From positions 22,351,421-22,415,420 of the forward strand of contig CM066919.1 of assembly GCA_033964015.1 (NCBI GenBank): 64,000 nucleotides of DNA. The letters are read 5' to 3'. The position numbers and the translations under genes were made by a program. The stretch is from Scolanthus callimorphus. Its lineage: Eukaryota > Cnidaria > Anthozoa > Actiniaria > Edwardsiidae. The notes under the pieces are model-generated. The model ran no database searches. It had not been told where the DNA came from and saw nothing but the letters and a program-made list of their open reading frames with translations. Positions 16,334-49,407 of the stretch are shown here, in pieces; the stretch's first letter is position 1; every line of letters starts with the position of its first letter.

Positions 16334-19300
16334 CTATCATTATTATAAAAATTACCTAAAGGGGTTTTGAGGTTTATATTGATACTTGGAGGGGGGTCAA
16401 TAGGTTTTTTGGGCTGAATGAAAAATCTTGCCAGCCCACCCCCTGGCATAAATAATGAATGCTCCCTAATCGATATATGTACTTTTCATTTCAGCTCTTA
16501 CTTACTGGAATTCTTGGAATAATAACATGGGTGAAAACGCAACAAAATGGTGGTATGTTGAACAATTGAATGCCCTTCTATCAACACACTCCCCACTAAA
16601 GAAGGGGTTTCTGAGGGAATACAAAACTCCTGGGATTTCCAAGGTAGGGCACACGATAAAACAGAATCTGGTTTGAGCGCCCCACATCTCCGGCGCCCCC
16701 GGTTTGAGCGCCCCACATATGCAATTTGTTTCAGAAGAGATTACAATGTGTATCCTATCCTAGGGGAGATCCTTCTTGGTGCTTTTTCATAGGGAGTGCC
16801 ATATTATACTTGGTCTTTCATAGGTCTTTACAATAGGCTGTTGAATAAAGTTAGTTTTATAGGACCTTTTTGGAGGGGATATTTAACGAAAAAATAAATT
16901 GAGGGTGATATGCAAAATCAAATTATTTCCTTACTGGCTGGGGCATTGCAGCTATTTTTTGGGATGAACTTTTTACAGCAATTCTGAGACTAGCAGCTTG
17001 TGACAACGTTATTTTAGGCATTGCAATGGTCCATGATGGTTTGTGAAAGTAGTGGTTTTATCTTTCCCACATTTTAACAACTTTAATAATCAGCGTATGA
17101 TACAACATCAGACAAGGACTACCTGCTAATTGCATAGCTAATTAGGGGTGGGTAGCATGGGACATAAATTTTGTATTTGATTTAAATACAGACAGCAGAG
17201 GTGATAGTCCGTTTTTACATTTCACCACAAAAATGAAACACAATTTACTCAAATTTGAAGAAAATACCACACAAATGATAACAATACTCAAATTTGAGGA
17301 AAATACTTGGAAAAATTTCTAAATAAAGAAGGAGTACTATGGCAAATTAAGAGCAAGACTCGACAGACTGATTACTTATTAAAATGGCCTTGAAAGACCT
17401 TAGGGACTTTGCATTCCTAAGTTCTGGTCTCAGACTATTCCAGAGTTTTGCGCCACTGTACTGCAGACTCCGTTTGAGATAATTAGTCTTAGGAGCTGGC
17501 AATACTAGTTTATCGTTTAGGAGTGTCAGATATCCAAAGAGCTGTTTGCCATCCATAAGGCTGCCTCGCACTAATGGTGGCATATGGCAGTTAACTTTGT
17601 ATGAGTCATTTGCTAACTCTTCTCTCTTAGGGGTAAATTTACTATGGACCACAGTCACCCTGTGCACTATATTATTTCTCCTCATGATCATCCCTGTCTA
17701 GTTTAAGGGGAGTCCCTCCTGGGTGGAACTGTCACATCCAACCTTCAATAAGACACCCCAAGTGGGCATGGGGACCCCTTCACCCCTTCACCCCTTTCCC
17801 ATCCCCCACCCCCATCCCTCTGGAATTTCCAAAGGAAAACACAGTATTTGTATGGAAGAAATCAGGGAAATTTACAGCCCACCCCTCCCCAAACCCTGGA
17901 ATTTCCAATCCCTACTGTAGGGGGGGGGGGGGGGGGATATTTTCTGGAACCACACAATTTTGCAAACATCAAGCTTTTTCAAGAGACCATTCTATACCCG
18001 TCTATACCCCTAGTATTACAGTTTTAACTCAGTGGACCAGGGTACAAGACAACAGTACTTGATCAGTCTCCTCTTTCACCTACCTTATAGATGGTGTTTT
18101 TCATGGTACTTAGCATCATGGACATTATCCTGTGTGTTGTACAAGTTATCTTGGCTATTATCGGCCTCCTTATCTGGGAAGTTCTCAAAGCTGCTGTCCG
18201 TACCAAATGCGAACTTGTAGGAGGGCATTGTGAATGTACTGGAGAAGATATACCTGTGGAGTGTAAGTGTGCTTCATTATGACATAGACACCTGTGTTAT
18301 CCAGTCATACAAATCCTAGTAAAATAAGCAGTTTTGTTTGCTCTCTCTTTTCTCGTATGTATCATAGAGCTGAAACTTTGGCTTTTTACTAAAATCATCA
18401 TGCTCTTTTCATTTCTGAGCATCATTTGGGTGAAGCTGCTCATTTTAAGGGTGACCGTCTCACGTAACCTCTAAGTGCAAAAGGCCTATTTTAATCCATT
18501 TGAACCCAGGTGCAGGCCCAAAGAGACATAACTGTCAAAAATCTGGAGCTTTTGTTAAGGGCCCATCACCAACCAGGAGCCTTTGTGGACTCTTAGCCAA
18601 TCAGAACACCCGGAAAACAATGGATCAATTTGAAAACAAAAGAAAACGGGGCGCAAAGGCTCTCGGTTGGTGTGGCAACAAATATATAAGAAACATCCAA
18701 CAAAGTTGTGCAGGAGAAATACAGGAAATGTATGAGAATGAAGTAAAGTTGACTTACTCCCACCCTGTCAGCTATGAAGAGAAGGATGTACATCTATAAG
18801 TCAAGGCCAAGCCAATGAACTCAACTAACCAAAGTACAGTCCGGAAATCGAACATGGAAGTCAGTAGTGCCCAGTTACTTCAGAGCTCAGCACAACCTGA
18901 TGACTTTGACTGGGCTTTGGCACCAGTCAAAGAAAAGTCTGCCCAAGACTACTACTCCCAGCTGTCTTTATCCAACAGTTCAACCTTCTTCTGAAACATT
19001 TCAAATTTGAAAACGCAGCCTACTAAAGCACGGTTGTCAGGGCCGTATAGTCCAGTCATTCTATGGTTTGACCCGTCACTAATTGCAACAGAAGGTTTTC
19101 TTCACAATATTGGTCAGTTGAACGTACTAAACAACATACTAAAAGTCCTAAAAAATCCTAGCACGGGAAAGCCTCTAAAATGAGCATCATTGATACGGGC
19201 GCTCTCCTGCAACATGAAAACGAGGCTGAAACCGGAAGTAGCGCTATTTTGCCCGTTTTAATAGTATTTTCTGCCTGATTTTCGAGGATTTGTCGTAATT

Positions 19301-21476: not shown

Positions 21477-24400
21477 GGAGTTGCTAATCTAGAAAAGCGG
21501 ACCAAAGTGGTTTGAATTTATTTTTATCGAGAAACCGCTGTCAAAATTCGCTAGGAAAAGCAAGTATAATAACTGGCTGTATGCCAAAGTTATCGCAGTC
21601 TTCTGTTTGGCCCATTTAATCACTAATTAATCATTTTTTAGTATCCATTCTCTTTTGACCCGCCTGAATTCGAAATACGAAGCCCCTTAAATGTGGACCT
21701 TTTTGTCACTTGGGTGTGTCGTGTGTGCGACCACAGTCTTAGAGCAAAACACTTTGCCTAAGTTTCGGCAAATTATTATTATTATTATGTGGCAAACATG
21801 AAAATTTTGCAAGTAACACCTTGCCTTATTCATCTTGAGTTTGCTCCTCTGAAATAATATGATACAAAATTATTGGCTAGAACCACTTCACTCGTTCGTG
21901 TAATCAGTGAAGGCTAGCGTTCAGTACAAGCAAATATAAACTTTGATAAAACTCATGCTCATTGCTCTTCTAAAATTGCTCTTTTAAAAGCGAAGAATTA
22001 GATATTTCTACATAAGATACATTGCCATGAAATGCTCAATGTAAATTTGGAAAAATCACTCACAGTCGTCTTTATTTGTGCGCATAATTAGCAGGGGAAA
22101 CCCTAACTGCTAATCCCGCGTACTCTCGACAAAACTGCTCCTTCAGAGAGTTGAGTTGACAGCTGATTCTTTAGTATGTTTACTTGTAGAAAGATGATTC
22201 TAATCTTCATATAGTAACTGAGGCAATTCTTCTCGAGCGGGTCCTATAGTAAGTGACTCTCTCTATTCAGATGCTTGTTTGGCAGCAAAGAAACGCAACA
22301 CTTTTAGTAGTGACGGGCTTTACTCAATCAGGTAGCTAGAGCTTCGCATTCGTAGCAGATTCAATCAACTTTATTTTATATTCATAATCATGTAAACTCA
22401 GTTTGTTTGAGACAGATTGAGTTAGATTGTGGTGTCAAAACATGCGAGCAAGAAAATTGCGAGTTCATCATGTAAGAAATTTTCATCAAAAAATACTCAG
22501 CAGTTTGAGAGAAAAATATAAAAATAAAATAAAACTTAGTCTACATGATTAATATTAATATTAGGATTGAAATTTTGGATATCATTTGGACATTTCCTTG
22601 CACGAAAGAAATAAATCTTGAATAATATTTAGGAAGTATTATGCACAGCCTCGTTTTCATGCAGAAAAAAATCCTTTCCAAGGCGACCTAAAAAAACGCA
22701 ATTTTTCACCGTGTTCCCGTGATAGGATTTCTTAGGACTTTTAGTATGTTATAAAGGGGGACTTTCGGCACCTGAAACCGTCGAGAAACCTTCTGTTGCA
22801 ATTAGTGACAGGTTGACCCCTTTTTTCCATAGAATGACTGGACTAGTAGCTAGCATAGGGTCACAGAGGGGGCAGTTGCCCCCAGCGAAGTAAAATTTTT
22901 AGTGTCAACAAGTGGGGAAAAACCTGCTTGCCCCCCCCCCCCCCCCCCCCCCCCAGCAAAAACAAAGAATGACCAAGGTCTGCCCCCCAGTCAAAAATTT
23001 CTAGCTATGGCCTTGGTTGTAGGTACTAAAACCTTATGATAAACGGATAAACGGACAAACCAAACGTCCGCCATGTTGGACCAACTGTGCAACCAAGCCT
23101 TTCGTCCTGCGCGCAGCATACTTGTGGATATGCGAATTGTAATAATGATAAAACCCTCAGAATTTTAGCCTTAACAGGCACTAATTTGATAGAAATACAA
23201 GGAAACATGGGATTACTATGGACAATCTTCGTCCAACAAATTCTTAAAATCCAGGTTATTTATACGACTGAATATTTTTAATGGTTTCGAACTACTGGCG
23301 ACAAACGTAAATGATTCCATTTATTGCTTTAGGCGGGTTGTCTAGAAAATATTCAGTTTGAGCGCCCTCTCCCCCACTAGCTACGCCCCTGAAAGGAACT
23401 TATTACTACTGCTCTGAATTAGTCCATAGGAAATTCTAGAGCCTCTGATTGGGTAATGTGTATGTAATAGAGCGGTTTTCACATGACTGTCGTGAAAGCA
23501 ATTCATGAGTAATTCACTATCCAATCAAATGCGATAGTAATTCAATCAACAAGCCAATCAGAGGGCGAGGTGATTTGCAATTAATCTCTCCTTTTCGCAA
23601 GCGAAGTAATCACAAAGTAATTGTTTTCTCTACGCGATCTGATTGGCTGAAGGATCAAAGATCATGCCCTCGACCAATCACAACCCGCAAACCGAGGAAT
23701 TTGTAATTACTCGCGGCAGTCATGTGAAAACCACTGGTGACGGTGTTTATGACCGTGTTTATATATTTTTTTCATTTTCAGTGGAGGACTGCTCGTGGAT
23801 CGAGGCGTTTGAGAGTATGTTCCTTCTGCTCGTCATTGTGAACGCCATTTGCGCGATCTTTGTGTTCTCGGCATCCATCATCGGTTGTATAGCGACGTGC
23901 TGCTCAGACACGCCGGTATGTGATGCCCAACAATACTGGGATGGGGGAGACCATACGACCGATTGGCAGCCATTGGCGCCAGAAAAAATTCGGTCACTGA
24001 GTCCAGTCCCTGAACTCTCCTTTTAACCGCCCTGGTTGTTTATGGCAAAAAAAATCACCATGTAATCGCGGCAAAATTTCAGCCCGGGCTGGAAATCTGC
24101 GCCAATGTTGTTAAATTTCTCTCTAATCGGCCCCCCCATTTGTGTTTTCGAGACACACGTCCTAGTTAAAGAGCCCTAGTCAGCCACTCCTTTGTTATTG
24201 TTTTCAGTCGGTATCAGACAACGAATTACGTGTAGAAATCTTGAAATAGTCTTCCAAAAACAAAGTTTTATTATTCATTTATTGAATTCAATCGAAAATA
24301 TTGCACTACATCCCCTAAATCAGCCGATGGAAATGGATGCTTTCTCTGCCTCGGTATGTTGCTAGGCTGACAAAATGGAGGCTGACAGGCCACTCAGGGA

Positions 24401-27400
24401 AACACGCGGGACGCAAATTTTGCGCGCTTCTGGTGTCCTAGTTACCCGTAGCTGAACCTACGCCAACCCTGCCTGCCTGTGTTAAAATGTTGCAGATAAT
24501 ATTTGCTTTTAGTCCGGTCAATTTAGCGTTTAACCTGGAAAAAATTGCAACATGGGATTTTTATACAGCAAGTTCTCAGGAACATATGTGAGAAATACGT
24601 GTCCAAATTTTGTGAAAGTCCGTTCGGGGGAAGTTGGTTAAATTTGGGGTTTTCCGTCTGCACGAAGGAAAGCCCGTTGTTTTCGGTGGCACTTAGACAA
24701 TGAAAGCGAACAATTCGAATTGAGGGCTATAGACTGTAGGGCCGTAACTCGGTGTGATATTGAACGAGATATCGCGCAATTTATTTCTACTGAATAATGT
24801 GATTGCATAGATGTGAATTGTGTGTTTGTTTATAACCAATTCTGCAAAATAATAACTAAATAATCGTGCGTTTTGACAAATCCCATATGATCCTTGTATT
24901 TCCCGCGTGGTGATACACTAAAGTTCGAATATTATACGCTAAAATAAATAAAATAAATAAACTGTTCAAGCGAACAATTCGAATTGAGGGCTATAGACTG
25001 TAGGGCCGTAACTCGGTGTGATATTGAACGAGATATCGCGCAATTTATTTCTACTGAATAATGTGATTGCATAGATGTGAATTGTGTGTTTGTTTATAAC
25101 CAATTCTGCAAAATAATAACTAAATAATCGTGCGTTTTGACAAATCCCATATGATCCTTGTATTTCCCGCGTGGTGATACACTAAAGTTCGAATATTATA
25201 CGCTAAAATAAATAAAATAAATAAACTGTTCATAGCCGTAACTCATCGCTCAGAAATTATTTGTTTCAACCGAAAAACCTTGTTAAATCTTCCCCGGTTT
25301 CATCTGTACAGTCTATAAACATTCTCCCAGTTTCTGTGTTTTCAGTTTCTAAGTGCCGCCGAAAACAAAAGGCGCCCTTGACGTCGCCGGTAAAACCAAA
25401 AATTTAACCAACTTCCCCCGGCCGGATTTCTACGAAATTTGGATATGTTATTCCTACATATGTTTTAACAATTAGTACCAAAAATTTCCCATGTAGCAAT
25501 TTTTTCCAGGTTCGGGGTTTTTTCGGGCTAATTTGACCGGACTATTTATAATTTCTCTCATCAGCGCCAGCCAGCCAGCAACGTGGTGGTCGTGCAGGGT
25601 GGGCCTATGATCACGTCTGGTGTCGGAGGGCAACATGTAGTGATTAGTAGTAAGTTTTTATATAGAGCATTCTCATTGGTCCCTCATTTCTGTCAACCAA
25701 TCGTAGCGTCTGATAGTGGTTTTACTTGGCCTGACTTTCAAAGAAGCTATTCACGTGCTCACCGCGTGATTGTGTTTTTACTCGGCTTGACTCTTATCAA
25801 ATCATTCACGTGCTACGCGCGTGATAGAGGTCTTGGCTTCTGGTTGGCTGACGAGGAAGGCATTCAGCAGCAAGTTGTAATGTCTCTGGTTCATGATTGG
25901 CTACTAAGTTTAGTCTTACTGCACTGTAAATTGAAAAGGGTCAAAACGACTCTTTCAAAAGGGTCGTTTTGGTGACCCCAGGACGACTCTTTTGAAAGAG
26001 TCAATTTGACCCTTGTCACAAATTGACTCTTTTGAAGAGTCGTTTTGACCCTTGACGATAATCGCTGTTTTGACCCTTTCTAGGGTCATTTTAACCATTG
26101 TTATATAGTCATTTTAGCTATTTGGTGTGCTGTTTTGGAACAGGCAAGGGTTGTTTTGTAAGACATATTCATCGCACAGGCCTACAGCCTTCGCCCCGTC
26201 GTTACGTTTCTCGTATACGGTATATTATGTATTTTAATCCTTGGAGGAGTCATTTCAAACCCTTGGAGGATAATTTTAAACCATTTTGGGAGTCATTTCT
26301 ACAATTCGCTGGCATCAAGTAGCATCACACAATTGTTAATAACATGAATTAATTTATTTAAAACTATTTCAATAATCTCATGACATAATCAAATCATTAT
26401 AATATTAATCGGCCTTCACTCACAAAGTAACTATAAATATATTATTACTTTTAAATTCACTTAACAGGAACAAGAACACTTCCATTTGAAGACTGTAGTT
26501 TAAAATTACACCTAATTCAAAAAAGGTTGTCCTTGGTGTTTGGTCTTTCAATAATTATAGCGCGGAACAAAGGGCTGTGGTCAGTGACCACGAAACAAAG
26601 GTGTCGATGACCAAAGACCAAATGACCAAGACAACCTTTTTTGAATTAGGTGTATACAAACGCCATTACTTTAAGGAGATAGTTTAATCACCATGCAGTG
26701 ATTACTAACAATCTACAATTCTGAAAGTTGTGTAAACAACTCTGCCACACTTATTGGGAGCTTCCCAGTGTAACTCATGGTGGCTGCTTGCAGAAAGATC
26801 ATCACATTGCGTTGCAGCCCGTATTCGCAGTTATAAACAAAATAGCATGAAATCATACAGAGCATCGCATCACAAAGCTTCTGCCCCTTGGAAAATCTGA
26901 AGATCCATTCGCCTTCTGCTGCAATATATGTGGTGTCCTCATCAAAAATACTGTTGCCATTTATAATCATAGCAGGTGCTGAGGATTTTGCTATAATACT
27001 ATCTATATCATCTGTACCCTAAAAAAAAAATTGAAAAAATAAATAAATATTAAAACACGCTTACCATTTGCAGACACTTGGTAATCAGATGTTAAAGTCA
27101 ATGTGTTCTGCCAAACTCCCACTGAGTACCGTGTATACATAATAGTTACATACATGTAGGTATCAGAGGGAAGCCCCCACTCCAGCATACACACACAAAT
27201 TTAACACCCAATGCACAAAGTATAAAAATCCCTATCTATTTAACTTTTATGTGTAAGTCTATTGTAAAACATTAATGATAAATGCCAAACCACATATACT
27301 GTACTGTACTGCATTTATGGCAGTTTGTATGGGCATCATAAATTGGGCAGAGTAAAATTTGGGATTACTTTCTAGTGTACAGACAGCTCAGGCAATTTTG

Positions 27401-30400
27401 AGAAAAATTGAAACAGTTGGTCAAACTAATCCCAAATTTTACAAGGAATCAATGTGATTGCATGCTTATAAACTGAAGGGCAAGAGAAGGGCAAGCTTCA
27501 GTATGCGTTGCATGTTGATTGCAGCTGCACTGAAAAAGTAATTCTAGAAACATACCTTCACAAGACGTAGCAACAATTCGTCTGCACTCCCTTGCCTCCC
27601 TCCACCCCGTTTGAGGAGGCATTGGCAAAGTACCCAAATAGCAGCTCTCCGCTGGCATTCTACAACATGTTAAAAATATATAAGCAAGGTACCGTAATTA
27701 CTTAAGACCGCCTTACTAAGACTTCTTAGGGGGGTTGACAGAGGGGCACTGAGATCCAAATTGAGTAGAGCTTTGAGGCATTGCAACATTGTTTCCTTAA
27801 CCGTAAAGTCCCTCAGTTCACTCAGTATTAAGAACTCTTTTCAAAGTTTTCTAATCTTGAAACATCTTGAAATTTGTAACCTTGACTGGGCCTGAGCCAA
27901 ACAAACCCTACCCTGACCAAACAAACCCTAAATGAACCTAGTGTACCAATCAGAAAAGGGGATGATGCACAACCCTAAAAACTAAAGGGACACTAGGGAA
28001 TCTGTTAAGTGGAGCTTACAAATCCAAAAAATGATCAAAATAAAATGGCACACAAGAGTGTGCAAAAATATTTTGCTATCTATTTTACAAAATTTTAAGA
28101 TGGGCTCCCTCTGGCGATAACTATTAAGCATGATAGGTACACACCTATCTCTCTTAGTTCTCCCTTCTCTACTGCTTCATCCATCTCAGCCAATATCCTT
28201 CTGATTTCAGGCTTGTCTGAGGCCATAGCATAAGAGAACACTTTTGGAATCCAGGTCTTTACAAACCGATCCCGCATAGTGTTGAATATGGCATCATCTT
28301 GCATAATGCGGCAAAATTCCATTCTTAACTGAAAAAGAAAAATCAACTAAGAATAAAAGCCAACCCCTATTTGTGACCCCACAGTGCCCTGTACATTTAA
28401 TGACACATTTCTGTCTGATTTCAAATACTTTTATCGGAAATATAGTACCCTCAAAAATAACCTTGCAGACAATTTTAACCCCTAAAAAATGTGAATACAA
28501 ATTGCCCATTTTAAGTGATGTGATGCACTCAAAGAGAGTTGTTTTTTGTCTTTCGGAAATTTATTTCTTCATTCTGTTTATTACTGCATTTGAAAGATAT
28601 GAGTAACATCTAGGACATGGGAAATGGGACAACAAACAAATGAAGCCCAGGAGGTCTATTGAATTAATCACTTACGTGTGTGGCACTCGTAAGTGGTGGA
28701 TAGTTTCTCTGAACTGTTTTCATGTCAGGGCACTCTTCAATGACCTCCTGTCGTCTTAGTGGGAATGTTTCTTTCATCAGCCGCATTATTTCAGCATTGT
28801 CTGATTTCTTTGTTTTCGACAAGCTCTTCAGCTCTTTGACTTTTTCTTTGAGGGTTTCTGCTTCCTCCTCAGATACCTCAGGGACCTGAGCCCAAACATC
28901 TGCTTCTTTCCTTTTCTTTTTTTTCTTTGGTGCATCCTCTGCCGGTTTGCTCATCTTTTTGCTGAGGCACCGTTTTGACGGGGGGTCCTGGATCCGTTTC
29001 ATCCGATTCAATATTTTGGTTTCCCATGATCCCTTTGATTAAAAACAAAAGTTTAGGGTGCTTGTATGATAATATAGCTTATCAAACCCTCACCCCCACC
29101 CCTCCCCCTTACACGCAAACACAAACAGCTTAAATAAGCAAAAATATGAATTTACCCATTCTGTGGTAGTCTCTCCAATTTTTGCATCTTTCAGGAATGG
29201 ATAGGTCCTCACGATCAGCTTTGCTACCTTCTCTATCTCTGCTCCAGTTGGATATCTCGTATTCAATGATATTAGGGTGCATACATCCCTGTTAAACTCA
29301 CAACGTTGACTCCAATTGAGTTGTTTCAACTCCAGGCCGGTTTGCACACTGACTGAAAACTGAGGGGAGAAATTGTTTTCAGTCACAACAAAATAAAAAT
29401 AGAAGAAAAGTCAAGTTTGCTCCCCTAATGAAATTATTACAGGCAGGTCTCTATCAGTCTTGTCTTTTGCAATTACTCTTTTATAAATATTCACTTTCAT
29501 TGTACATTTATCAACAGTAAATATTTGTAAAACATAGGTAAAACAATATTGTAAGAGCATTGAGAATTTTTAAATGCTCAGGAACATTTTATTATTATTA
29601 TTATTTCAAGATTTACCACCTAACACAAATTTAGTTGTCATTTATCTATTCATTGTCTGTATAGAAAGCTTTAGAAACCTTTACAGCTGATGGGTTATTG
29701 AAGTCAGCAGCTTAATACTGTATACAGAATCTTACTCACCCTTGGAGGCAGCTCAAACGTATCAGCCCAGTTCTCTTTAACTCCTCTTTCACCAGCTCGG
29801 CCTCTTGGAGAAGGCTTTGATGAGGAACTAGGGGGAGACTGAAAATTTGATTTAAAAAATTGAGTACTTAATGCAAGGTTAGTAAACAAGACCACTTTCC
29901 CCTGATAAAACATGTTATTCAGAAGGCACAGTTTGACCATTTTTCATTTAGCAGCTGTCATTATATTGGAAATTGAGTTCTCCCTGTCCTAAACAGGGCT
30001 AGGGTTCCAGAGCTTTCAGAGGATCTCTTCTACCCAATTTGGGTTTCAGTACCCACCCTGAGGAAAAATGAAACTTACCTTATTTAAAGTAGATGAACCA
30101 CCAGTAGATATATTGCAGCCATTAGCATTATTTTCCTTATCTGATGTGGGGGTTTCTGCTCTAACGGTGGTGGAATCTGAATGTGGAGATGAGGTTCGTG
30201 GAGAAGAGGTTTGGTTTGGAGTGGAAGGTGTAGAGTTTGGAGCAGTTGAGACGTCTGTAGCAATGGTATTTAGTGTAGACAGGCGACATTGTTTACCCAT
30301 AGCATCAAAACCCTGAGGAATATGAATAAAGTACAGCTGTTACCAGCTATTTACCACCGATTTTACTGACATCATTTTATGGTTTTCATGTTTTTGAATT

Positions 30401-33400
30401 CCCAGCTGTGGGCCAGTTCCTAGAAAGAGGGATAAAGTTATCCTAGGGATAAGTGGTAGCATTTTCAATACAAAAGTTATCCCTGGGATAAAATTCCTAG
30501 GGATAAAATTTGTATTGAAAATGCTAGCATTTATCCCTAAGATAGCTTATTCCTCTTTCTAGGAACCGGCCCCTGTAAATTGGACACAAAACTCAAGTTG
30601 ATTTTATTAAAATCCTTGCATTGAGTGCCTTGAAGTTTGCTGACAATGAAAAAAAAACACGAAAACGGCAAATAATCACAGATTCTGTATTCTGTGATAA
30701 GAGTTCTACCCGACATGACAACTGGGACAACTTAAAAGGTGCCGCTCGTTCCTTACAGACAAACCACGAGATTTTACTTCCCCCACTTGAATCTTACAAA
30801 ATCATTGCAATCCTTGTGAGACACTAAAGCCCAGATAGAGTATTTACTTGTTGAGAAAAAAACATTTTCATCTTTGATGTTTTATAAAGTTTTTCAATAA
30901 GCTAAACGGTGAAATTTAGACCAACGTTTAGTAAAGTCAACGGGAACGACAATGACATACCATTCCTGTTTCGTTGGACCAGGCATCTCTGAAGCGTTTT
31001 TTCTCCTTCAAAGTCGTGATTAGGCTATCGATCATCCACGCTTCCAAGGTAAAGAAGTCACTGCCGTCGATTTCTTCATCTATAGAGAATTCATAAAATG
31101 AATGAAGCCAGTTTGGATCCATTTTGATAAAGCAGCTTGGAGTGTATTTCGCACGTCGGCGGACTCCAGTACGGTACTCACCCGCAAACTTTTTGATCGA
31201 GAATTCCGATATTTTCTTTTCCCTTAGCCATTCCGCGACTTCAGTGGTTGAACTTTCTCGTGACAAGGCCATCAAACGAGCAGAAGATATTTTCAAAAGA
31301 GTATAAAAGCACCAAGCATAAAAATAACCGATCAGCAAAGGACGTGCTTCCGAAAATCTGAAGATGATCACGGCGGTACGATCACACGAGGAAATTATTA
31401 TTCTTGTCATGACCGCTACGATCCATGGGAGCTTGGCCGTAAAAGGCTTGTCTTTCCTTTTTCGGATATAATTTTTCCCGCCAAAAATCTGTCTGTCAGC
31501 CTGTCGATAGCTTCCGAACCGATTCCGAACCATAAAAGTATCGAACTACCTTATTTGGAAGCACAAAGATTGCTCGAGAAGCTTTCGCGCCATTTATCAA
31601 AATGGCGGCGTTTGATTGCGAGATGTGCTCATTTAGATTACCTTCGTTCGCTTTGATTATAAATCACTATGGACGTTTTCATCGATTCGATCCAAACTTT
31701 TTTGTGTCTTGCAAAGCACGTGGTTGTAGTGCTACATACAAAACGTTCGAAGGCTTCAAAAGCCATCTTCGTCGACAACACAAGAACTACGAGTTCAATT
31801 CGACGAACTCAACAACAATGAATGCGGAGTCAATCGCTGCTGAGAGTGACGAATTGGAAGACGAAGGGATCCTTGAAGACAATTCAGAGATCACCGAGAA
31901 CTTGGATACATTTGGAGATCCCGAAGACCATAACTCTGGCCCTCTTGGAAATCCTGTTGCAGTGTTAGACCCAATGACTGAATACAAAAGACAAAATGCT
32001 CTGTTCCTTTTACAGTCTAAAGAACTGCATAATTTGACGCAGAAAGCAACAGATTCTATTGTTTCTGGCACTACAAGTATAGTGAGGAAAGCATTGGAAC
32101 TGCTACAAAATGATGTGGCTAGTTGTTTATCTGAAGCTGGCATTCAGATTGACTTGAACCCGGGACTTAAAAGCATCTTTAAGAATGATCACTTTGCAGC
32201 TAACCCATTCTCTGGTCTTGAAGGGAAAAGACAACAGATGCTGTTTTGTTTGGAAAACTTTGGACTTGTGGTAAGTAAAAGTTAGGTTATTTTTGTTTCA
32301 CTTGTAGTTTGGCTTAGTCTCCTACGCAGCCCGTGTTTTGTGTCGGTCATCCCTTCCGTTGCGTGACAGACACAAAATACGGGCTGCAAGGAGACTAAGA
32401 CCCCGTTCACACGAGACCAGTACAAAACCGGACCGGTACAATTCTGGTAGCGTACCGCCTGTTCATACGGTACTGGTACAATTCTGGCATGTTTTGCAGC
32501 AGTGTTCACATGGGACCGGGCACGCCTAGCCGTGCCAATATCGGTCCGGTACCGTATGTCCCATGTGAACGTGCGACGGTACCATACCAGAATTTTACTG
32601 GTCCGGTTTTGAACCGGTGCTGTGTGAGCGGGGTCTAAGTTTGGTTTGATAACTTACCATTCAGGGTAAATGCTATAAATAAATAAAATAAATGAATGAA
32701 TAAATAAATAAATACAAAGAAAGAGAGGACTCAGTCATACATCCATACTGGCTTGTTTAGTACAGGCTGAAGGCATGCACTCCTCAGTGGCTCATACAAA
32801 ACTAGCTCATTCGCTTTGCATACAATCATTTTACATTCAATCATTTATTTGATTTATTTATAGCATTTACCTTGAATGGTAAGTTATCAAGCCAAACTTA
32901 GACCCCGCTCACACGGCACCGGTTCAAAACCGGACCGGTACAATTCTGGTATGGTACCGTTGCACGTTCACACGGGACATACGGTACCGGACCGATGAAA
33001 ACATCAAACATTCTTCAAGAGAAATGTGTCCATGTGACAACACTTGCTAAGGAGTTCAGATTTTTTGTTAAGCGTCACTGTCCTGGGTTTACAAATGACA
33101 AAAAATTCCCAGCAGTACACATTGGTAAATGCGGCGCAACTTGGATATTACACAGTGTGCAACTGTATATAGCTGAGGAATTTTTCACAATTAATAAATA
33201 AAATATCTTTAATTTGCCTTTGTATTTGATTAGGATGAGCATACAAATCCCTCCCAATGCCCGAAGGGGCCAGCATTTTGCCATATGGTTCCTGTGTTAC
33301 AATCAATAAATACATGATGTACCCCACAACTGTATGTAATGTATTTCTTGGTTTCTTTCAGGAACCTGTTAAACACACACTTGGTAAGAGTCATGTACAG

Positions 33401-36400
33401 CATAGATCTGGTATACGACAGAGGAGGAAGGCTGTAAATGAGGATATGGTTATTGTTCCATTGCTAAAAAGCCTTGAAGCAATGCTGAATGAGCCCAGTA
33501 TATACCATGAGGTAAGAGAATAATTTAGTCCTTTCTGTAAATGATGTATTGGCATAAGGAAAGCTCAAAGGGTTGTCCTAACATAAAGCAGTATTGCTTG
33601 AAATGGATCCAGTAAGTAAAAAGCCAGTGGGATTAAGCTAGAGGCTGGAATAATTGCCTTGGACAGAATTTTTTGTGATCAGTAGACTGGGCCTCATAAG
33701 ATTTTAGCCTCATTTTTTTTCTTAATATCTTTAAATTTTAGCTTGTACAATTTTTTTAGGGGGGAGGGGGATTGCGACCCCTTCTAATGGTCTGCCACTT
33801 AATAGGAAAATCTCAATGAATTGTCTCTAACAGGTTTCTTATGTATTATGTATTTCACAGATAATGAATCCTCATCAGAACGCGACAACAAATGGCAGAG
33901 TATATGACTATTGTGATGCTGAGGTCTTCAAGAGTCATCCTTTGTTCTCAAGAGAACATTCTGCACTCCAAATTATGCTTTATTATGATGATGTAGAAGT
34001 AGTCAACCCACTTGGAAGTAAAACCAAGAAGCATAAGATAGGTATGGAGGGCTCGATAATTTGACCAAGTCGCAAAAGCCACTATCTTTTTTTTTTCAAC
34101 TAGAAAATTTGAGTAGGTAGGTTGCAAATCCTGACTAGCATGTCAATAACCAGCTACTGATATAAAAAGCATCATTTTTTAAGACTCAGTTTTGTCGAAT
34201 GTTTGTGACTAAAATTTGACACCTACCGGTAGTTGCAAAAATGTGACCTCAGATTTTCTTTATTTCAAGCCCCTGGTATGTGAGATATTGTATATGTACT
34301 GGTAACTCATTTAGATCATCATGTATGCTACTAAGATGTGTGTTACTAAAGAGATAACAAACCTATGTGTAACAGAGTGGAGATAAGGAATTAACCTTGT
34401 GTGAAAGCTGACGTGCTAATGAAATGGTCCCATGTGTGCTTATGAGCGTTAGCCCTAGTAAGCGGAGAAAGAGAAAAAATCTCTGACCCCGAGAGGGTCA
34501 GAGATTTTTTCTCTTTCTCCGCTTACTAGGGCTAACGCTCATAAGCACACATGGGACCATTTCATTAGCACGTCAGCTTTCACACAAGGTTAATTCCTTA
34601 TCTCCACTCTGTTGAACTTAGTGCTACGCGGCCACAGGCTTGCCTGAACATCTATGTGTAACAGGTACAGTATTTGACTTTATTGTTTAGGGGTCTTCTA
34701 CTACACTCTTGGAAATATCCGTCCTGCTCACCGCTCCCAGTTAAAAGCCATTCAACTTCTAGCTGTTGTCAGAAGGCCTCTCATCACCAAATATGGGATA
34801 AATAACATCCTAGAACCTATAAAAAATGGGGGTCATGAATTCTCTATTGCTGGTCAACGTCAGTTATTTACTGGTACAATAGCTTTTGTATCAGGAGATA
34901 ACCTTGCATCCCAAGAACTAGGGGGCTTCAAAGTTGGTTCAGGGGCCAAGTTGAAATGCAGAGAATGCATGGGCCAGGGGAATGATTTGAAATGCAAGGT
35001 AAACAGATACACATCTTGTTATTCTATGATGGAAAGGAAGGGATGTTCATGTTCAGATTGCTTCTTACAGTAACACTGCAGGTGCAAGGATGTTAACCAA
35101 ACTCTACTCTGGCATGAATGCCTTAAATAATGTATCATTTTCATAGTCATGAAGGTATTTGATTTTCTGAATTTCAGTTTCATGAAAGATTTTTCACCCC
35201 AAGAACAAAACAAAGCCATGACAACCATTGTGATGAAATTGAAGATGATCCTGCTCTATCATCAGCCTATGGGATTAACTTCGCCTCAGCACTATCCCAG
35301 TCTAGGTATTTCCATGTTATTGGAGGCCTGCCTGGTGACGCCATGCATGATGTTTTAGAAGGCTGCTTACAATATGAATGCAAGGAACTACTGAAATATC
35401 TGATGTACGAAAGAAAATATTTCAGGCTTGAGGAGTTAAACCTTGTGCTGAAGAACTTCGACTATGGCTATCACAATGATAAGAATAAGCCATCACCCAT
35501 TTCTGAGCAGACACTAAATGCAGACTCCAATACCCTCCATCAGAAAGGTAAGATGAGTCTTATGCAGATTCCCCTTTATCACACTAGGCAAACAATTCCC
35601 ATGGCTCTATCCATTCTTATTCAATAAAGAAACATAATATTTCTGATTGCTATCAGAAAGTGTTTGCACATCTGCGTAAAACCTGACAGACAACATAAAT
35701 CATATTTTCCCTTGTTCAGTCACCGCATGTGACTGCTGACGTCAGGATACCGGCATTACAAAATTATTTAAGTATTTTGACAGTCCAGAAATCCGTGCCC
35801 TGTCAGTCTCATCCCTGTTCCACATCCCTGTCCACATCTTAGCACCATTAGTTGAGCAAAATCATGGTACACTTTTATTTGCAGAGCAAGCCCCTTTTAA
35901 TCAAAGAATAAAATATTGAATTAAGATTTTGCCTTTTGTTTTCCGTTGCATGGGCATAGAATAGCTATTATACAATGGTTCATATGACATGCTGTTCTAT
36001 AGAATCCCCATGGGCCCACATGTATAGCAGAAAATACTAACAAATCAACTAAGTTGAAAATTAATTTATGTTATTCTGTCAATAGCATCTCAGATGTGGT
36101 GTCTTGCAAGATACCTGCCACTGATCATTGGTGCTAAAGTTCCTTTCACTGATGCAAAATGGGCTCTTTATCTGAAGCTGCTAGATATTACGGACATCAT
36201 CTTCAGTCCTGTGACAAGTGCCAATCAGTGTGCACATTTGGCACTTCTTATTGAGGAACATCATGAGGAATTTGTTGATTTGTACCCAAACTGTTCAGTC
36301 ATCCCAAAAATGCACTACATGATCCACTACCCAAGGACAATGATCAGGTAGAAATAACTTTTTGTTACCTTTATCAACCCTTGATTTAAAGGCCCATCAC

Positions 36401-39400
36401 TAACCAAGAGCCTTTGCGGACTCTTAGCCAATTAGAGCACCCCATAAACAATGGATCAATATGAAAACAAAAGAAAACGGGTCGCAAAGGCTCCTGGTTG
36501 GCGATGGGACTTTAAACATGGACTTGACTTGAGATTCTGGGGAAACACAACTGACGGTTTCCCTCAGGAGCAGTCATTAAGTGTATACTATTCCAGTAAT
36601 TGACTTTAAAAGATGCTTCAAAGGGTATTAAGAGCATGCTCGAGGATCCAGCCCCTCCTTGCAGTGCTGTCCAAAGGGCTGGATCCTCGCTCATGTATAG
36701 AGAGGGATACATTGTTGGTACTAATGGAACATCTATTTTCTTTTCATTTCCCTTATCTTTTAAGGTTAGGGCCTATGGTAGTTCATTGGTGCATGAGGTT
36801 TGAAGCAAAACACAGGCACTTCAAACAGCTGGCAACTACACTTGGGAATTTCACCAACCTATCATGGACACTTGCAGAGCGTCATCAGAGCAGGCAGTGT
36901 TATGTCATGCAAAATATTCACAAGCCAATAGAGTGTGGTCCAGGTAACTGAATAAAATAGCTTATTTCCACTTTAAAAATGCCAAAAAATGATTCTCGTT
37001 GCATTATTTTTAAATTTAGTTTCCTGGGAGAAACAACACCTGCAGATTACCACCTCCAAAATATATATATATTATTTACAGTCTGGTAGGTCCTAAGCTG
37101 GTAAATAATATATTTATTTTTTCCTAAGGAAAATGAAACAGGGAGCGAGCAAATCAGAGCATGCAATTTCATGAATACCAGACCACAAAAACAAATTATT
37201 GTTATGAAAGATTGATTTGAAACATCCAAACATTTACCAATTACTTTGATCTAATTGCAGGAAAACAGAAAGAAGCTAACACAACTGAGTACTATAATCT
37301 ACTTCACACTCAAGATCCCCAGATCGATCAACTGTCAGTTGTGCATGAGTAAGTAGAACCATGCTAGTGTGCATATTAAAGACAAACACAGAACACAATG
37401 TTGTCACTGGGCTCTTCCTCTTTTATTGGTGACCCCCACCCCTAATTTTTAGGTTATACCCCTGTGGAAATTAGTAAAAATTGCTCAACCCCTATGGGAA
37501 TTCATGGCAATTTTGTATGCCCTTTGGAAATCCATGGACATTTTATACCCGTGGAAAATACCTCTATCGATTCAAAATCAATGGAAATCCAGTGTCCAAA
37601 TTCAAAGACCCTATGGAAATTCAAGGTCCAACTTCAAAGGCCCTAAGGATATCCGGGGTCAAATTGAGAGACCCTATGGAAACCAGGATCCAAATTCAAA
37701 GTCCCTTTGGAAATCCAGGGTCTTCAAAAGGGGGTTCATATTTCAAATTTAATTTTTTAACTTGCCACCCATTTCTCACAAGACCAGAAAGTGATTTTCA
37801 GTATTCTGATAATGATCCATGACCTTAAGTCAGCAAAGCAGGGCCAAATGTGCACTTGTTAGCCAATGCCAAAATAACAGTTGTTTTTGTTTCTCTTTTC
37901 TTTTCAGGCCATCCTGGGTGTCTTTGTTTGGAACAAAATACAAAACCGGGGCAGTGGTTCACTCTGGTTTTTTTCATCTTCTACCAGAATTTTCAGAAAT
38001 ACACCGCATAGTCATTGTTAATGGTGACCTGAACAGACTGTTTTTTATACTTCATAAGCTAGATACTATGGGGCTTGAGGAACATTACCATTCTTACAAA
38101 GTCAGGAAACCTTATGTTAATGTTACAAGTATCTGCACTCAGAGTGAGCTTCCCTCATTTTTGCCCCTACATATTTCTAGGCCTGTGGGCTCTTATGGCT
38201 CATATGTAAATGTAAAGTATAATGTAGATTTATTTAATTTGCGTTGATATTATATACAATTGGTTTGCACAATGTGCATTGAATCCTCACTCTTGTTGTA
38301 AAACAATTTGAAATGTGTATATATGAAGAGTATATGAATAAGCAAAAAGTTTATGGTAAAGCGTGTCCAGAACAAAACCAAAATGACTCATTTTGTATCA
38401 AAACTACACTTCCCATTAGTTATTTTGACCCCAGGAAGAGTCGAAATGACTCTTGGAGGTGTCAAAAGGACTCTTTGAGGGGTCAAAATGACATTTTATT
38501 GTAGTCGAAATGATTCTTCAAAGGGTCAAAAAAAGTGGCACTGCATTTTTTTATCTGTTTCAGCCTCTTTTTTTCTGTTATCTATAACTGTTATTTAAAA
38601 TTGCCTTATTTAAGGTGCAAGATTTTCCTACAGGGTGAAAGACAAGAAAAGTTTTTTCTGAAGGTTTAACTGAGGAAATACCTTATCAAAACAGGTTCTA
38701 CAGTGGGTTTTCCGAGGGAGAAGGGCAAAAATATCAGAGGCTTGCCTAAAACACTTGTCCAAAGAGAAGGCCGGTAAAAGAGTCAATATGACTCTTTTTG
38801 TATCAACTAGCTATTTGAAGAGTCAAAAGGACTCTTTTCATGTGTCATTTTGACTCTCTTAGGAGGGTCAAATTGGATATTGTAGTCAAAATGACTCTTT
38901 TAAGGGTCAAAACGACTTATTGGGTCAAAGGGTTAAAACGACTCCTTGGGGTCAAAACGACCCTTTTCAATTTACAGTGTGCAGTCATTTGAAATTTGCT
39001 CAGACATTTTGACGAACTACCGTCCAATGCTTCGTCATTCAGTTATGAAGATACACAGGGGCGTAGCCAGGGGGGGGGGGGGGGGGTTCCAGGGGTTCCG
39101 GAACCCCCCCTCTCCCGCAGCGGAACCCCCCTCGCCTCTGTTCTGGACCGACTTATTACTAAAATTCGGTAAATATTTAATAGACAACAAATAAAAGCTC
39201 CAATAAAATGTAGCAAATTTCTTCAAACGCTAGTTTTTTTCCCGAGATCAATATTTTTGGCTGGGTTTCCTGTGGCGAGAACGCAAAAAACGTCCGATTT
39301 ATGTGGAGTTTTTTATTTTTTGAATTTTGGAACCCCCCCTCTCATAAGTGCTGGCTACGCCCCTGATACACTGACCTTCTTACCACTTTCAACACAGCAG

Positions 39401-39687
39401 GCCCAGGCGGTACACCCATGGTTATAGGTGGAGGACAGCAGCCTATAATAATGACCCAGCAAGGCTACCCCGGTCAAGCTATACCCATGCAACAAATGGT
39501 ACCGCAGCAGATGGCACCACAACAGATGGCACCACCAGCTTACACCCCGCAGGCCACAGGCTACGTACCAGGGCAGTACCCCATGGCAGATCAAGCAGCA
39601 GCCCTTCCTCCCAAGGCAGCACCCCCACCTTCTTCAGAAGGAGGGGGTCCCGCACCTGATGGTGGAAACGACAGCTCAAAGCTGTAG
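14939..39687 (+). CDS. Tetraspan membrane protein with Pro/Gln-rich tail (gene D)
   Basis: Six exons: 14939-15091, 16495-16551 or nearby, 18091-18262, 23782-23915, 25565-25649, 39401-39687 (stop), giving about 295 residues. Exon 1 encodes EVEVGKAKATG and TM1, then GYGGKDGNGLW. Exon 2 encodes TM2 (LLLTGILGIITWV). Exon 3 encodes TM3 and the loop TKCELVGGHCECTGED. Exon 4 encodes LEDCSW and TM4. Exons 5-6 encode a cytosolic tail rich in M-x-P-Q-Q with a PPAY (PPxY, WW-domain-binding) motif. Exon 2 does not join in frame: an A4 run at 16534-16537, where gene B has A3, shifts the frame before the GTATGT donor. With three A's it reads VKRNKMV, matching gene B's VKRVKLA. This is a homopolymer error or a real frameshift. 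A 13-kb CACTA transposon occupies the last intron. AATAAA is at 39847-39852. The function is unassigned. Confidence 0.8.
15741..16015. mobile_element. TIR element TACTGCGATTTTCATAA, copy 2
   Basis: Ends TACTGCGATTTTCATAAATC and GAATTATGAAATCACAGTA, with mirrored CTTCCGTCAATCAAA segments. It directly abuts the Harbinger-like MITE that starts at 16017. Confidence 0.6.
16017..16466. mobile_element. Harbinger-like MITE with TAA duplication
   Basis: About 35-bp TIRs (GGGAGCATTCATTATTTATG at the left, its inverse at the right) are flanked by TAA on both sides (16014-16016, 16467-16469). This fits the 3-bp TWA target of PIF/Harbinger elements. It contains a G31 tract at 16303-16333 and ends 28 bp before exon 2 of gene D. 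Confidence 0.72.
17347..17691 (-). pseudogene. LINE reverse-transcriptase 3' fragment
   Basis: The minus-strand frame of 114 codons ends with the typical C-terminal block of non-LTR retrotransposon polyproteins: LPAPKTNYLKRSLQYSGAKL, then WNSLRPELRNAKSLRSFK. Only the tail is present, with no RT catalytic motif, so it is a 5'-truncated dead copy in intron 2 of gene D. Confidence 0.7.
18557..18676. mobile_element. MITE family M3 (AAGGGCCCATCACCAACC), copy 1
   Basis: The left end is AAGGGCCCATCACCAACCAG and the right end AAAGGCTCTCGGTTGGTG. The interior ATGGATCAATTTGAAAACAA segment is shared with the copies at 36385-36516 and 43478-43604. Confidence 0.7.
19048..22845. mobile_element. 3.8-kb TAGTCCAG element with GTA duplication
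   Basis: The left end, TAGTCCAGTCATTCTATGG, is mirrored at the right by CCATAGAATGACTGGACTA. Extended imperfect TIRs of over 100 bp include CACTAATTGCAACAGAAGG and its inverse. GTA flanks both ends (19045-19047, 22846-22848). The longest open frame inside (20743-21192, plus) resembles no known protein, so this looks non-autonomous. It contains a G33 tract at 21443-21475. Terminal bases and 3-bp duplication match the elements at 24510-25544 and 42423-43380. Confidence 0.72.
21443..21475 (+). repeat. G33 mononucleotide tract
   Basis: An uninterrupted run of 33 G. Similar runs: G31 16303-16333, C24 22931-22954, G20 41947-41966, G17 39070-39086, G17 17920-17936, G16 42267-42282, G14 12646-12659. 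Lengths are likely to be imprecise in the assembly. Confidence 0.85.
22846..23400. mobile_element. hAT-like remnant with C24 tract
   Basis: The right side ends ACTAGCTACGCCCCTG, the inverse of the common hAT end CAGGGGCGTAGC. It holds a C24 tract at 22931-22954. No clean partner end was found, so the boundaries are approximate. Confidence 0.4.
23468..23735. mobile_element. MITE family M1, copy 3, next to a splice acceptor
   Basis: The left end, TAGAGCGGTTTTCACATGAC, is mirrored by GGCAGTCATGTGAAAACCACT, where the last bases have decayed. It ends about 46 bp before exon 4 of gene D. Confidence 0.7.
24510..25544. mobile_element. 1.0-kb TAGTCCGG element with TTT duplication
   Basis: Ends TAGTCCGGTCAATTTAGC and GCTAATTTGACCGGACTA, with imperfect inner TIRs of about 190 bp (TTAACCAACTTCCCC arm and its inverse GGGGGAAGTTGGTTAA). 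TTT flanks both ends (24507-24509, 25545-25547). The interior contains a 264-bp tandem duplication. It ends 20 bp before exon 5 of gene D. Confidence 0.75.
24704..25231. repeat. Tandem duplication, period 264 bp
   Basis: The segment starting AAGCGAACAATTCGAATTGA at 24704 repeats at 24968 with no mismatch that I noticed. Both copies end AAATAAATAAACTGTTCA. It lies inside the TAGTCCGG element, so the duplication is younger than the insertion. Confidence 0.85.
25922..25942 (+). repeat. Left terminal inverted repeat of the CACTA element
   Basis: Twenty-one bp, identical in inverse to 38959-38979, beginning CACTG. The preceding TG is the target duplication. Confidence 0.92.
25936..26095. repeat. 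Left subterminal GTC/GAC motif array
   Basis: Repeated short units in both orientations: GGGTCAAAACGACTC, GACTCTTTTGAAAGAGTC, GAGTCAATTTGACCC, GAGTCGTTTTGACCC. In CACTA elements such subterminal repeats are the binding sites for element-encoded protein. Which of the two proteins would bind here is not known. Confidence 0.7.
26713..31272 (-). CDS. SAM-domain accessory protein of the CACTA element
   Basis: Nine exons in matching phase: 31272-31182, 31079-30961, 30312-30079, 29838-29740, 29359-29156, 29032-28676, 28328-28145, 27659-27556, 27018-26713 (stop), giving 565 residues without a break. Residues about 11-65 form a sterile-alpha-motif-like domain (VAEWLREKKI ... EIDGSDFFTLEAW). A Ser/Thr/Pro-rich linker follows (71-180). 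Residues 216-261 carry RYPTGAEIEKVAK and TYPFLKD, typical of the SAMD3-like proteins common in fish and invertebrates. A basic run at 285-291 (KKKKKRK) is a likely nuclear signal. The C-terminal third is helical and conserved-looking but of unknown function. The first ATG with SAM-domain context was taken as start. AATAAA occurs on the minus strand at 26358-26353. It is divergent from the transposase; a role in transposition is inferred from position only. Confidence 0.85.
30409..30574. mobile_element. MITE nested in the SAM-gene intron
   Basis: Arms GGGCCAGTTCCTAGAAAGAG and CTCTTTCTAGGAACCGGCCC, with inner mirrored AGGGATAA motifs. It lies in intron 2 of the SAM-domain gene inside the CACTA element. 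Confidence 0.7.
31273..31601. promoter_or_regulatory. Shared divergent promoter region of the two transposon genes
   Basis: Only 329 bp separate the start codons of the minus-strand SAM gene and the plus-strand transposase gene, so both promoters or their 5' UTRs overlap here. TATAAAAG at 31302-31309 is in the plus orientation and might be a TATA box for the transposase. No comparable motif was found for the other direction. Confidence 0.5.
31602..38247 (+). CDS. CACTA-type transposase with N-terminal C2H2 fingers
   Basis: Nine exons in matching phase: 31602-32270, 33362-33511, 33861-34041, 34691-34998, 35178-35547, 36086-36347, 36765-36943, 37261-37348, 37908-38247 (stop), giving 848 residues without a break. 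Two zinc fingers: C6-C9-H22-H27 and C37-C42-H55-H60. An acidic linker follows (about 75-110). The catalytic core has candidate DDE residues D403 (SGDNLASQELGGF), D494 (GDAMHDVLEG; D490 is the alternative) and E660 (MRFEAKH). A CREC zinc-binding pair (423-426) follows the first Asp, as described for CMC transposases. The protein would bind the element's ends and catalyse cut-and-paste transposition in the nucleus. The start ATG is the first in the exon and precedes finger 1. Residue roles are inferred from family motifs. Confidence 0.88.
32310..32401. mobile_element. Short hairpin element in transposase intron 1
   Basis: CTTAGTCTCCTACGCAGCCC and its inverse GGGCTGCAAGGAGACTAAG enclose a second pair, TTGTGTCGGTCA / GACAGACACAAA. 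It directly abuts the next element. Confidence 0.6.
32400..33000. mobile_element. Composite of inverted MITE family M4 copies
   Basis: ACCCCGTTCACACGAGACCA with repeated CCGGTACAATTCTGG fills 32402-32637. An inverse-oriented partial copy lies at 32899-33000. Between them sits an inverted pair of AACTTACCATTCAGGGTAAA (about 32650) and its inverse (about 32870), with AAATAAATAAAT simple repeats. It lies in transposase intron 1. A single M4 copy occurs at 63590-63769. Confidence 0.65.
34371..34613. repeat. Perfect palindrome, 119-bp arms, 5-nt loop
   Basis: The left arm 34371-34489 (starting AACAGAGTGGAGATAAGG) is, as read, an exact inverse of 34495-34613; the loop is CGAGA. A 13-bp direct repeat, CTATGTGTAACAG, lies at 34363-34375 and again at about 34654-34666, as if the hairpin came with a duplication. 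It lies in intron 3 of the transposase gene. The RNA could fold into a 119-bp perfect duplex. Confidence 0.88.
36385..36516. mobile_element. MITE family M3, copy 2, inside the CACTA element
   Basis: Ends TTTAAAGGCCCATCACTAAC and GTTGGCGATGGGACTTTAAA, with the ATGGATCAATATGAAAACAA core. It lies in transposase intron 6. Confidence 0.75.
37450..37735. repeat. Degenerate CCC(T)ATGGAAATTCA minisatellite
   Basis: Roughly ten units built on CCCTATGGAAATTCA with variable spacers fill intron 8 of the transposase gene. Similar units built on CCCCTGTGGAAATTCCA lie at 61918-62140 and relatives at 47025-47350. Confidence 0.65.
38380..38965. repeat. Right subterminal GTC/GAC motif array
   Basis: Scattered units such as GAGTCGAAATGACTC, GTGTCAAAAGGACTC, GGGTCAAAATGAC and AGAGTCAATATGACTC run from about 38385 to the right TIR. 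The core is shared with the left array, but the array is longer and looser. Confidence 0.7.
38959..38979 (-). repeat. Right terminal inverted repeat of the CACTA element
   Basis: Ends ...CAATTTACAGTG, the exact inverse of 25922-25942 over 21 bp. It is followed by the duplicated TG. Confidence 0.92.
39057..39364. mobile_element. hAT-like MITE with 7-bp GATACAC duplication
   Basis: Ends AGGGGCGTAGCCAG and CTGGCTACGCCCCT. GATACAC lies directly outside both (39050-39056, 39365-39371). It contains a G17 tract and GAACCCCCCCTCTC repeated near both ends. It ends 36 bp before the last exon of gene D, so it lies next to the branch-point/polypyrimidine region. Confidence 0.75.
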
Positions 39688-43477: not shown

Positions 43478-43604
43478 AGGACATCACCAACCGGGAGCCT
43501 TTGCGCCCCGTTTTCTTTTGTTTTCAAATTGATCCATTGTTTTTCGGGTGCTCTGATTGGCTAAGCGTCTACAAAGGCTCTCGGTTGGTGATGGGCCTTT
43601 AAAT
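43478..43604. mobile_element. MITE family M3, copy 3
   Basis: CATCACCAACCGGGAGCCTT at the left and CTCGGTTGGTGATGGGCC+TTTAAA at the right, with an inverse-oriented TTTTCAAATTGATCCATTG core. Confidence 0.7.
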
Positions 43605-49030: not shown

Positions 49031-49407
49031 GAAATATGGCGAAGTAAGACATTTTATTTTTGGTAATTACCGCTCTGTCGCTTGTATGGTGTTTAGTGGG
49101 GTATAATTTGATAGGGGCACTGGCGATCAGCGCACAGTATATGTCATGTATTCACAATTATTGCCGTGTAATTAGTAGTAGTACAGGCAAAGACAATGAG
49201 ATGGTTTTCATTTCTTATCTTGAAATATGGCGAAGTAAGACATTTTCTTTTTGGTAATTACCGCTCTGTCGCTTGTATGGTGTTTAGTGGGGTTTAATTT
49301 GATAGGGGCACTGGCGATCAGCGCACGGTATATGTCATGTATTCACAATTATTGCCGTGTAATTAGTAGTAGTACAGGCAAAGACAATGAGATGGTTTTC
49401 ATTTCTG
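49031..49407. repeat. Tandem duplication, period 191 bp
   Basis: The segment starting GAAATATGGCGAAGTAAGAC at 49031 repeats at 49222 with a handful of substitutions. The period is not a multiple of three, so the similar hydrophobic open frames in both copies are not one protein. Confidence 0.8.

Follow-up and report, generated by a model that had tools for sequence, protein, structure and literature searches.

A recently moving CACTA-clade transposon of a sea anemone with a BAH-like transposase end and a SAM-like partner gene

Can a 13-kb DNA transposon in a cnidarian genome still move, and which proteins would it use? The question is raised by a stretch of 64,000 nucleotides from Scolanthus callimorphus (GenBank assembly GCA_033964015.1, contig CM066919.1, positions 22,351,421 to 22,415,420; hereafter the window, in whose own numbering all unlabelled positions are given). 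An element of the CACTA type occupies positions 25922-38979 (13,058 bp), with terminal inverted repeats (TIRs), a TG target-site duplication, subterminal arrays and two divergent genes, T for the transposase and S for a SAM-like protein. We conclude that it is a genuine, recently moving animal element of the CACTA clade, ordinary in its ends and catalysis and unusual in the BAH-like end of its transposase and in its SAM-like partner. With a probability of roughly 0.8, it belongs to a young two-gene cut-and-paste family of low copy number, within the CACTA/EnSpm (CMCT) clade, that would work by the mechanism set out below.

The left TIR (25922..25942, plus strand) starts with CACTG, is exact in 6/6 genomic copies, and is identical over 21/21 bp to the right TIR (38959..38979, minus strand). 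With up to three mismatches allowed, the only TIR sites in the window are these two element ends, against 0.01 expected from 100 shuffles. The termini read as the inverted 5'-CAC...GTG-3' that CACTA/EnSpm requires, the pentamer being CACTG and not CACTA, and they are flanked by TG on both sides (25920..25921 and 38980..38981). A left subterminal array with motifs in both orientations (25938..26300) and a right array in which several units are spaced 21 bp apart (38380..38966) share the core AAANGAC/GTCNTTT, of which the terminal 600 bp contain 7 instances on the left and 10 on the right. Shuffle means are 0.55 and 0.83 and the maxima of 500 shuffles are 3 and 5, respectively, and the core stays at background level in the element interior and the remaining window. 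All 13 window sites of an 18-bp consensus, with up to four mismatches allowed, fall within the two ends, against 0-1 sites in five shuffles.

The two genes lie head to head around a 329-bp shared 5' region between their start codons (31273..31601), presumed to be a two-way promoter. Gene T (31602..38247, plus strand) encodes 848 aa in nine exons at 31602-32270, 33362-33511, 33861-34041, 34691-34998, 35178-35547, 36086-36347, 36765-36943, 37261-37348 and 37908-38247. Gene S (26713..31272, minus strand) encodes 565 aa, also in nine exons, at 31272-31182, 31079-30961, 30312-30079, 29838-29740, 29359-29156, 29032-28676, 28328-28145, 27659-27556 and 27018-26713. All introns are GT-AG and neither gene has an internal stop. 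Both exon chains were rebuilt from splice sites and selected to remain open, so open frames alone are weak evidence for the models; independent support comes from the 87 homologs of T, from splice dinucleotides that are preserved in 6/6 genomic copies, and from the purifying selection described below. The original prediction, made from the window alone, had placed a CACTA-type element within these boundaries, with a TG duplication, subterminal motif arrays and two nine-exon genes free of stops and phase errors, and each of these readings holds.

Whether such an element moves is best judged from its relatives in the same genome. A copy search of that genome (597 Mb in 302 contigs, giving site counts that are lower bounds) located at least 12 exact TIR sites, all of them paired ends of six full-length copies: C1 (13,077 bp), the window copy on contig C9 (13,058 bp), C12 (13,010 bp), C14a (17,192 bp), C14b (12,664 bp) and C204 (13,009 bp). 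No short non-autonomous derivatives with this TIR were seen among the at least 12 exact sites. Each of the six copies sits at a different site within a perfect 2-bp duplication, TG or CA, which by chance would occur at all six with a probability of ~5e-6 given the dinucleotide frequency of the window. Pairwise, the window copy, C1, C12 and C204 differ by 0-14 substitutions over ~13,000 bp, with none in 13,004 bp between C12 and C204. C14a diverges from C14b by 0.33%, and both diverge from the other four by 0.46-0.59%. The same division is drawn by insertions. A 289-bp palindrome inserted into the third intron of T (34363..34652; arms 98% matching, with a ~13-bp direct repeat at its edges) is present in the window copy, C1, C12 and C204, partly missing in C12 and C204, and missing in C14a and C14b; an intron of S likewise holds a 109-bp segment in the four young copies and not in the C14 pair. 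These four copies therefore moved after their split from C14a/C14b, and since the palindrome is common to four copies at four sites, the element moved after gaining it. The family has thus moved recently as a 13-kb unit.

Several further observations concern the copies and their surroundings. Two sites, C10:29170284-29170304 and C108:86038-86058, share one TIR version with two mismatches, where a control pattern gave one site, and perhaps mark a sister family, or else a single locus that appears on two haplotype contigs. C14a (C14:2335021-2352212) is enlarged by a 4.5-kb insert whose long frames look, by eye, LINE-like (long interspersed nuclear element), and it lies in an apparent C2H2 zinc-finger coding array. 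When translated, the flanks of C12, C14a and C14b resemble, by eye, leucine-rich repeats, C2H2 fingers and a membrane receptor. At 5/6 sites, including the intron site of the window copy, the 300-bp flanks once joined have an open frame, so open flanks show nothing about coding context. Six insertion sites are too few for any claim about targeting.

A direct view of one insertion comes from an empty site; the comparison covered one of the six insertions, C204. The joined 300-bp flanks of this copy match C14:19347772-19348071 at 100%, and this C14 stretch is without the element and has a single TG. Around the C204 site, ~19 of 20 kb align to C14 at 96.6-99.4%. The insertion, being absent from the matching stretch, looks polymorphic, and as C204 is a contig of 122 kb the simplest reading is that of two haplotypes, one with and one without the element. 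We consider it unlikely that the empty site is instead a segmental duplicate and the C204 insertion not polymorphic: the contigs are without haplotype labels and the flank identity would also suit a young duplication, but C204 is a contig of 122 kb, and its flanks are collinear with a single place over ~19 of 20 kb. On both readings, the insertion is later than the split of the C204 and C14 stretches.

The catalytic identity of T was read from its homologs, which include proteins of cnidarians, sponges, a mollusc, echinoderms, fish and arthropods. In a tree of T and 35 of the 87 homologs, which contains only T homologs, T has its nearest relative in the octocoral Dendronephthya (59% over 531 columns; support 100/96), followed by Nematostella. 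An alignment of T with 48 of the 87 homologs (A2, 49 rows) reveals the signature D316, D403, C423, C426, H636, H640 and E660, conserved in 46-49 of the rows, with H at positions 636 and 640 in 47/49 each and E at position 660 in 46/49. Exon 4 (34691..34998) holds the second catalytic D, D403, together with C423 and C426, and exons 6-7 (36086..36943) hold H636, H640 and E660. T thus shows a DDE triad whose second D and E enclose C(2)C and H(3-4)H, the pattern by which PMC12730594 delimits CMCT. At its N-terminus, exon 1 (31602..32270) encodes a C2H2-like zinc-finger pair, marked by conserved C/H columns, and a PDB comparison with the A2 profile finds C2H2 zinc-finger chains, at best with E 1.4e-5. 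Pfam Transposase_21 (tnp2) matches 8/49 A2 members at E <= 0.01 (best E 8e-5), window T itself being unmatched. The motif [YF]P..KD occurs in 3/87 homologs against 0.9 expected, which is no evidence by itself.

When a predicted model of a T homolog is compared with known structures, RAG1, BbRAGL and HzTransib are the closest among the 50 best matches listed, and the homolog models with a RAG1/Transib-type core. This likeness could be taken to place the element in the Transib/RAG lineage and not in CACTA, an assignment that we regard as very unlikely. The duplications are 2 bp in 6/6 copies, as opposed to the 5 bp of Transib, and Transib/RAG membership was rejected on this count; the 2-3 bp expected of CACTA/EnSpm is found at all six. 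Nor does the structural ranking decide the matter: the 50 best matches listed include no CACTA transposase, and so RAG1 can be the best match for a CMCT member. Besides the duplication length, the element differs from Transib, ProtoRAG and RAG1 in its partner and in the transposase itself: no RAG2-like gene is seen here, and a SAM-like partner and a BAH-like domain on the transposase are. The matches of tnp2, which reach A2 members and not window T, lean towards CACTA, and PMC12730594 groups EnSpm, Transib, Plavaka and RAG1 together. KDZ (Kyakuja/Dileera/Zisupton) was rejected too, as its duplications of 7-8 bp (7 bp for Kyakuja and 8 bp for Zisupton in PMC12730594) differ from the 2 bp of all six copies. 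Within CMCT, Pfam Plavaka matches 1/49 A2 members and, weakly, homolog P0047; window T and most scanned members are unmatched, nor was a TET/JBP gene recognised within this transposon. A viral origin of T was rejected: the T-homolog model has no match in BFVD at E <= 0.001, and searches of viral contigs and genome contigs with a seven-sequence alignment (A3) confirmed no relative. One thrips homolog, P0070, carries the database name V(D)J recombination-activating protein 1; its closest kin among these homologs are CACTA-clade transposases.

The known elements most like this one are the CACTA/TRC elements, with which it shares inverted ends, 2-3 bp duplications, introns, a DDE transposase of CMCT signature and an accessory product; with plant CACTA it also shares subterminal repeats. 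It differs from CACTA/TRC elements by the BAH-like C-terminus of T. The CACTG ends here contrast with CACTA and with the CCC suggested for animal TRCs, and the accessory product of those elements comes from alternative splicing, whereas here its source would be a separate, divergent SAM-like gene. PMC1636069 describes 2-bp repeats beside 7/14 SmTRC1 copies and beside two other animal elements, and presumes the fast-evolving accessory product of SmTRC1, unrelatable to those of other animals, to be a TNPA analogue. Among the papers listed by a literature search, no report of the present family was noticed; Repbase Reports lay outside its scope, and the family may have been named earlier.

The transposase of the window copy itself is not whole. 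Compared with its five sister copies, window T has a private in-frame deletion of 24 bp (8 codons) after position 34820, in exon 4. Checks of phase and stops are blind to this loss because it is in frame. The missing codons map to an RNase H-fold helix (residues 341-356 of homolog P0004), within the catalytic domain, and their loss leaves 36 residues between the deletion point and the second catalytic D, where 46/48 homologs have at least 39; homologs P0032 and P0078 are even shorter than window T here. Window T matches 58/59 strongly conserved columns, and its sole departure lies in the deletion gap. With a conserved part of the catalytic domain lost, including part of the RNase H helix, the window transposase is probably weakened, and on this sequence evidence its activity is likely reduced. 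Among the sisters, only C1 has an undamaged T: in C204 a stop comes 5 codons too soon, and C12, C14a and C14b have frame shifts in this gene. S reads open in three copies (the window copy, C14a and C204), while the other three (C1, C12 and C14b) are shifted. As such, 0/6 copies are undamaged in both genes. The 1-bp coding losses lie within or next to short runs of one base (3-5 equal bases) and could be errors of the assembly.

The coding differences of T and S between subfamilies indicate purifying selection. Against an expectation of 78% nonsynonymous changes, nonsynonymous to synonymous counts for T and S together are 3:6 between the window copy and C14b (P 0.0045), 8:9 between the window copy and C14a (P 0.0044), and 5:7 between C14a and C14b (P 0.0060), for pairs that share history and are not independent. 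Taken singly between the window copy and C14a, S gives 2:5 (P 0.007) and T gives 6:4 (P 0.15). It is highly improbable that the element is a dead member of an old family, spared visible decay by chance. The private deletion in window T, the palindromes in introns that resemble miniature inverted-repeat transposable elements (MITEs), and the want of a copy undamaged in both genes would suit such a relic, but it is at odds with four copies only 0-14 substitutions apart per 13 kb, with a C204 insertion missing from the matching contig, with purifying selection on T and S taken together, and with an intron palindrome that is found at four sites, absent from the other two copies, and was carried along by later movement.

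For the original prediction this has mixed consequences. Its apparently intact element with two complete genes stands for S, which is open, and fails for T, which lacks 8 codons that five sisters have. The capacity to move is borne out for the family (six copies 0-0.59% diverged, one empty site) and doubtful for the window copy because of the T deletion. The genome search with the termini that it proposed yielded the six full-length copies, and a search with joined flanks yielded the empty site; it had envisaged that every copy might prove fixed and diverged, and divergence of that kind was not found, fixation having been examined at one site. The RAG1-like fold, the BAH-like end and the SAM-like partner go beyond what it contained.

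The C-terminus of T is encoded within one exon, exon 9 (37908..38247), of 112 codons and a stop. Its predicted fold is BAH-like: 49 of the best 50 matches listed are, judged by title or by the protein's identity, BAH-domain proteins, and the listed matches are at 4-14% identity. DNMT1, MET1, SHL, EBS, BAHCC1, ORC1, Sir3, TNRC18, PBRM1, Rsc2 and MTA1 are among them, and several have been solved with methyl-lysine histone peptides. A domain of this type is present in 37 of the 40 T homologs (of 87) placed in alignment A4. Exon 9 is predicted to resemble the BAH readers DNMT1, ORC1, BAHCC1 and EBS/SHL in fold and differs from them in its low identity, and its reading of histones is putative. That the domain is a mere SH3-like barrel serving structure or DNA contact, and no histone reader, is a serious alternative to which we give somewhat less than even odds. 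Submitted alone to Foldseek, the domain returns matches at E >= 0.16 with ribosomal proteins mixed into the list, Pfam scans of T and its homologs give no BAH match, and the fiftieth of the best 50 matches listed is a chromo-barrel; against a plain barrel stand the presumed BAH proteins in the other 49 places, the methyl-lysine binding of several of them in solved structures, and the retention of the domain in nearly all A4 homologs. Among the papers listed by a literature search, no report of a BAH domain in a transposase was noticed.

A SAM-like domain is predicted at the start of S (exons 1-2, 30961..31272, minus strand). It matches Pfam SAM_3 at E 7e-4 with 19.9 bits, under the curated cut-off of 22.6, and its best PDB sequence matches, SHANK2 (E 0.23) and L3MBTL3 (E 0.3), presumably both SAM domains, are alone not significant; with scores of this order the domain is termed SAM-like. 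Database searches with S gave no relative at E <= 0.001. Of the T homologs, 3/87, of echinoderm, fish and fly origin, are gene models that extend into S-like segments. The tail of Holothuria P0067 reaches SAM_1 at E 0.0014 (below cut-off), its S-like score being equalled by 1/1000 shuffles and standing at 58 against at most 48 among 83 control segments. The segments of hake P0034 and of horn fly P0085, the latter with a lysine-rich stretch, have scores that 2/1000 shuffles reach in each case; the same test of Apostichopus P0045 was not significant (85/1000). The S-like part follows T in P0067 and P0034 and precedes it in P0085, and the fused models read both parts on one strand, whereas T and S diverge in the window. 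Such fusions suggest that T and S genes are neighbours in those animals.

On this analysis we propose S as a candidate accessory factor of the TNPA type. It is unlikely to be a captured host gene that is carried along without a part in movement: the lack of a significant database relative, and the abundance of SAM domains in host proteins, might suggest such an origin, but S is under constraint of its own (the 2:5 ratio between the window copy and C14a) and S-like segments are fused to T models in three other animals. Among the papers listed by a literature search, no link between SAM domains and transposons was noticed. S offers a concrete candidate for a TNPA-like factor, and the three fused transposase models contain segments related to it.

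Together these features suggest how the family might move. T would cut at CACTG and join the ends to a TG/CA step, while its N-terminal zinc fingers together with S would recognise the subterminal arrays and pair the ends, S acting as the functional counterpart of plant TNPA. The BAH-like C-terminus could dock the complex on nucleosomes and bias target choice. The window copy would probably make a weakened transposase and might depend for its movement on T supplied by a sister. A broader extension, which we hold tentatively and consider doubtful, is that the element belongs to a widespread animal CACTA lineage, still jumping, in which a RAG1-fold transposase with its own BAH reader and a polymer-forming SAM partner has its targeting steered by chromatin. 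If the BAH-like end is a histone reader, target choice would be steered by chromatin state. RAG1 works with the PHD reader of RAG2, and a reader on T would be an independent parallel to that arrangement. A CACTA transposase with such an end would tie cut-and-paste transposition to histone reading and offer a comparison for how the RAG recombinase came to read chromatin. With near-identical copies, an empty site, and open T and S frames among the copies, the movement of a large animal CACTA element is directly testable.

The window copy sits in a presumed host gene, inside an intron (25650-39397) that would be 688 bp long once the element and one duplication are subtracted. The presumed host exons 23782-23915, 25565-25649 and 39398-39687 join in frame around the element and encode a membrane segment followed by a Gly/Pro/Gln-rich tail; a Pfam scan of two pieces of this gene named neither. 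Open frames at 56484-57660 include a weak zf-RVT match in 57316-57660 (E 6e-4, below cut-off), perhaps a LINE remnant. Immediately left of the element lies an exact 264-bp tandem duplication (24704-25231), and similar young duplications occur at 12752-13362 (309 bp, 99%) and 49025-49412 (191 bp, 97%). A MITE-like family has three copies in the window at 89-93% identity, one in T intron 6 (36384-36515) and two outside the element (18555-18670 and 43482-43604), and a palindromic repeat family is represented in T intron 1 (32391-32996) and again near the end of the window (63582-63775), at 81-88%.

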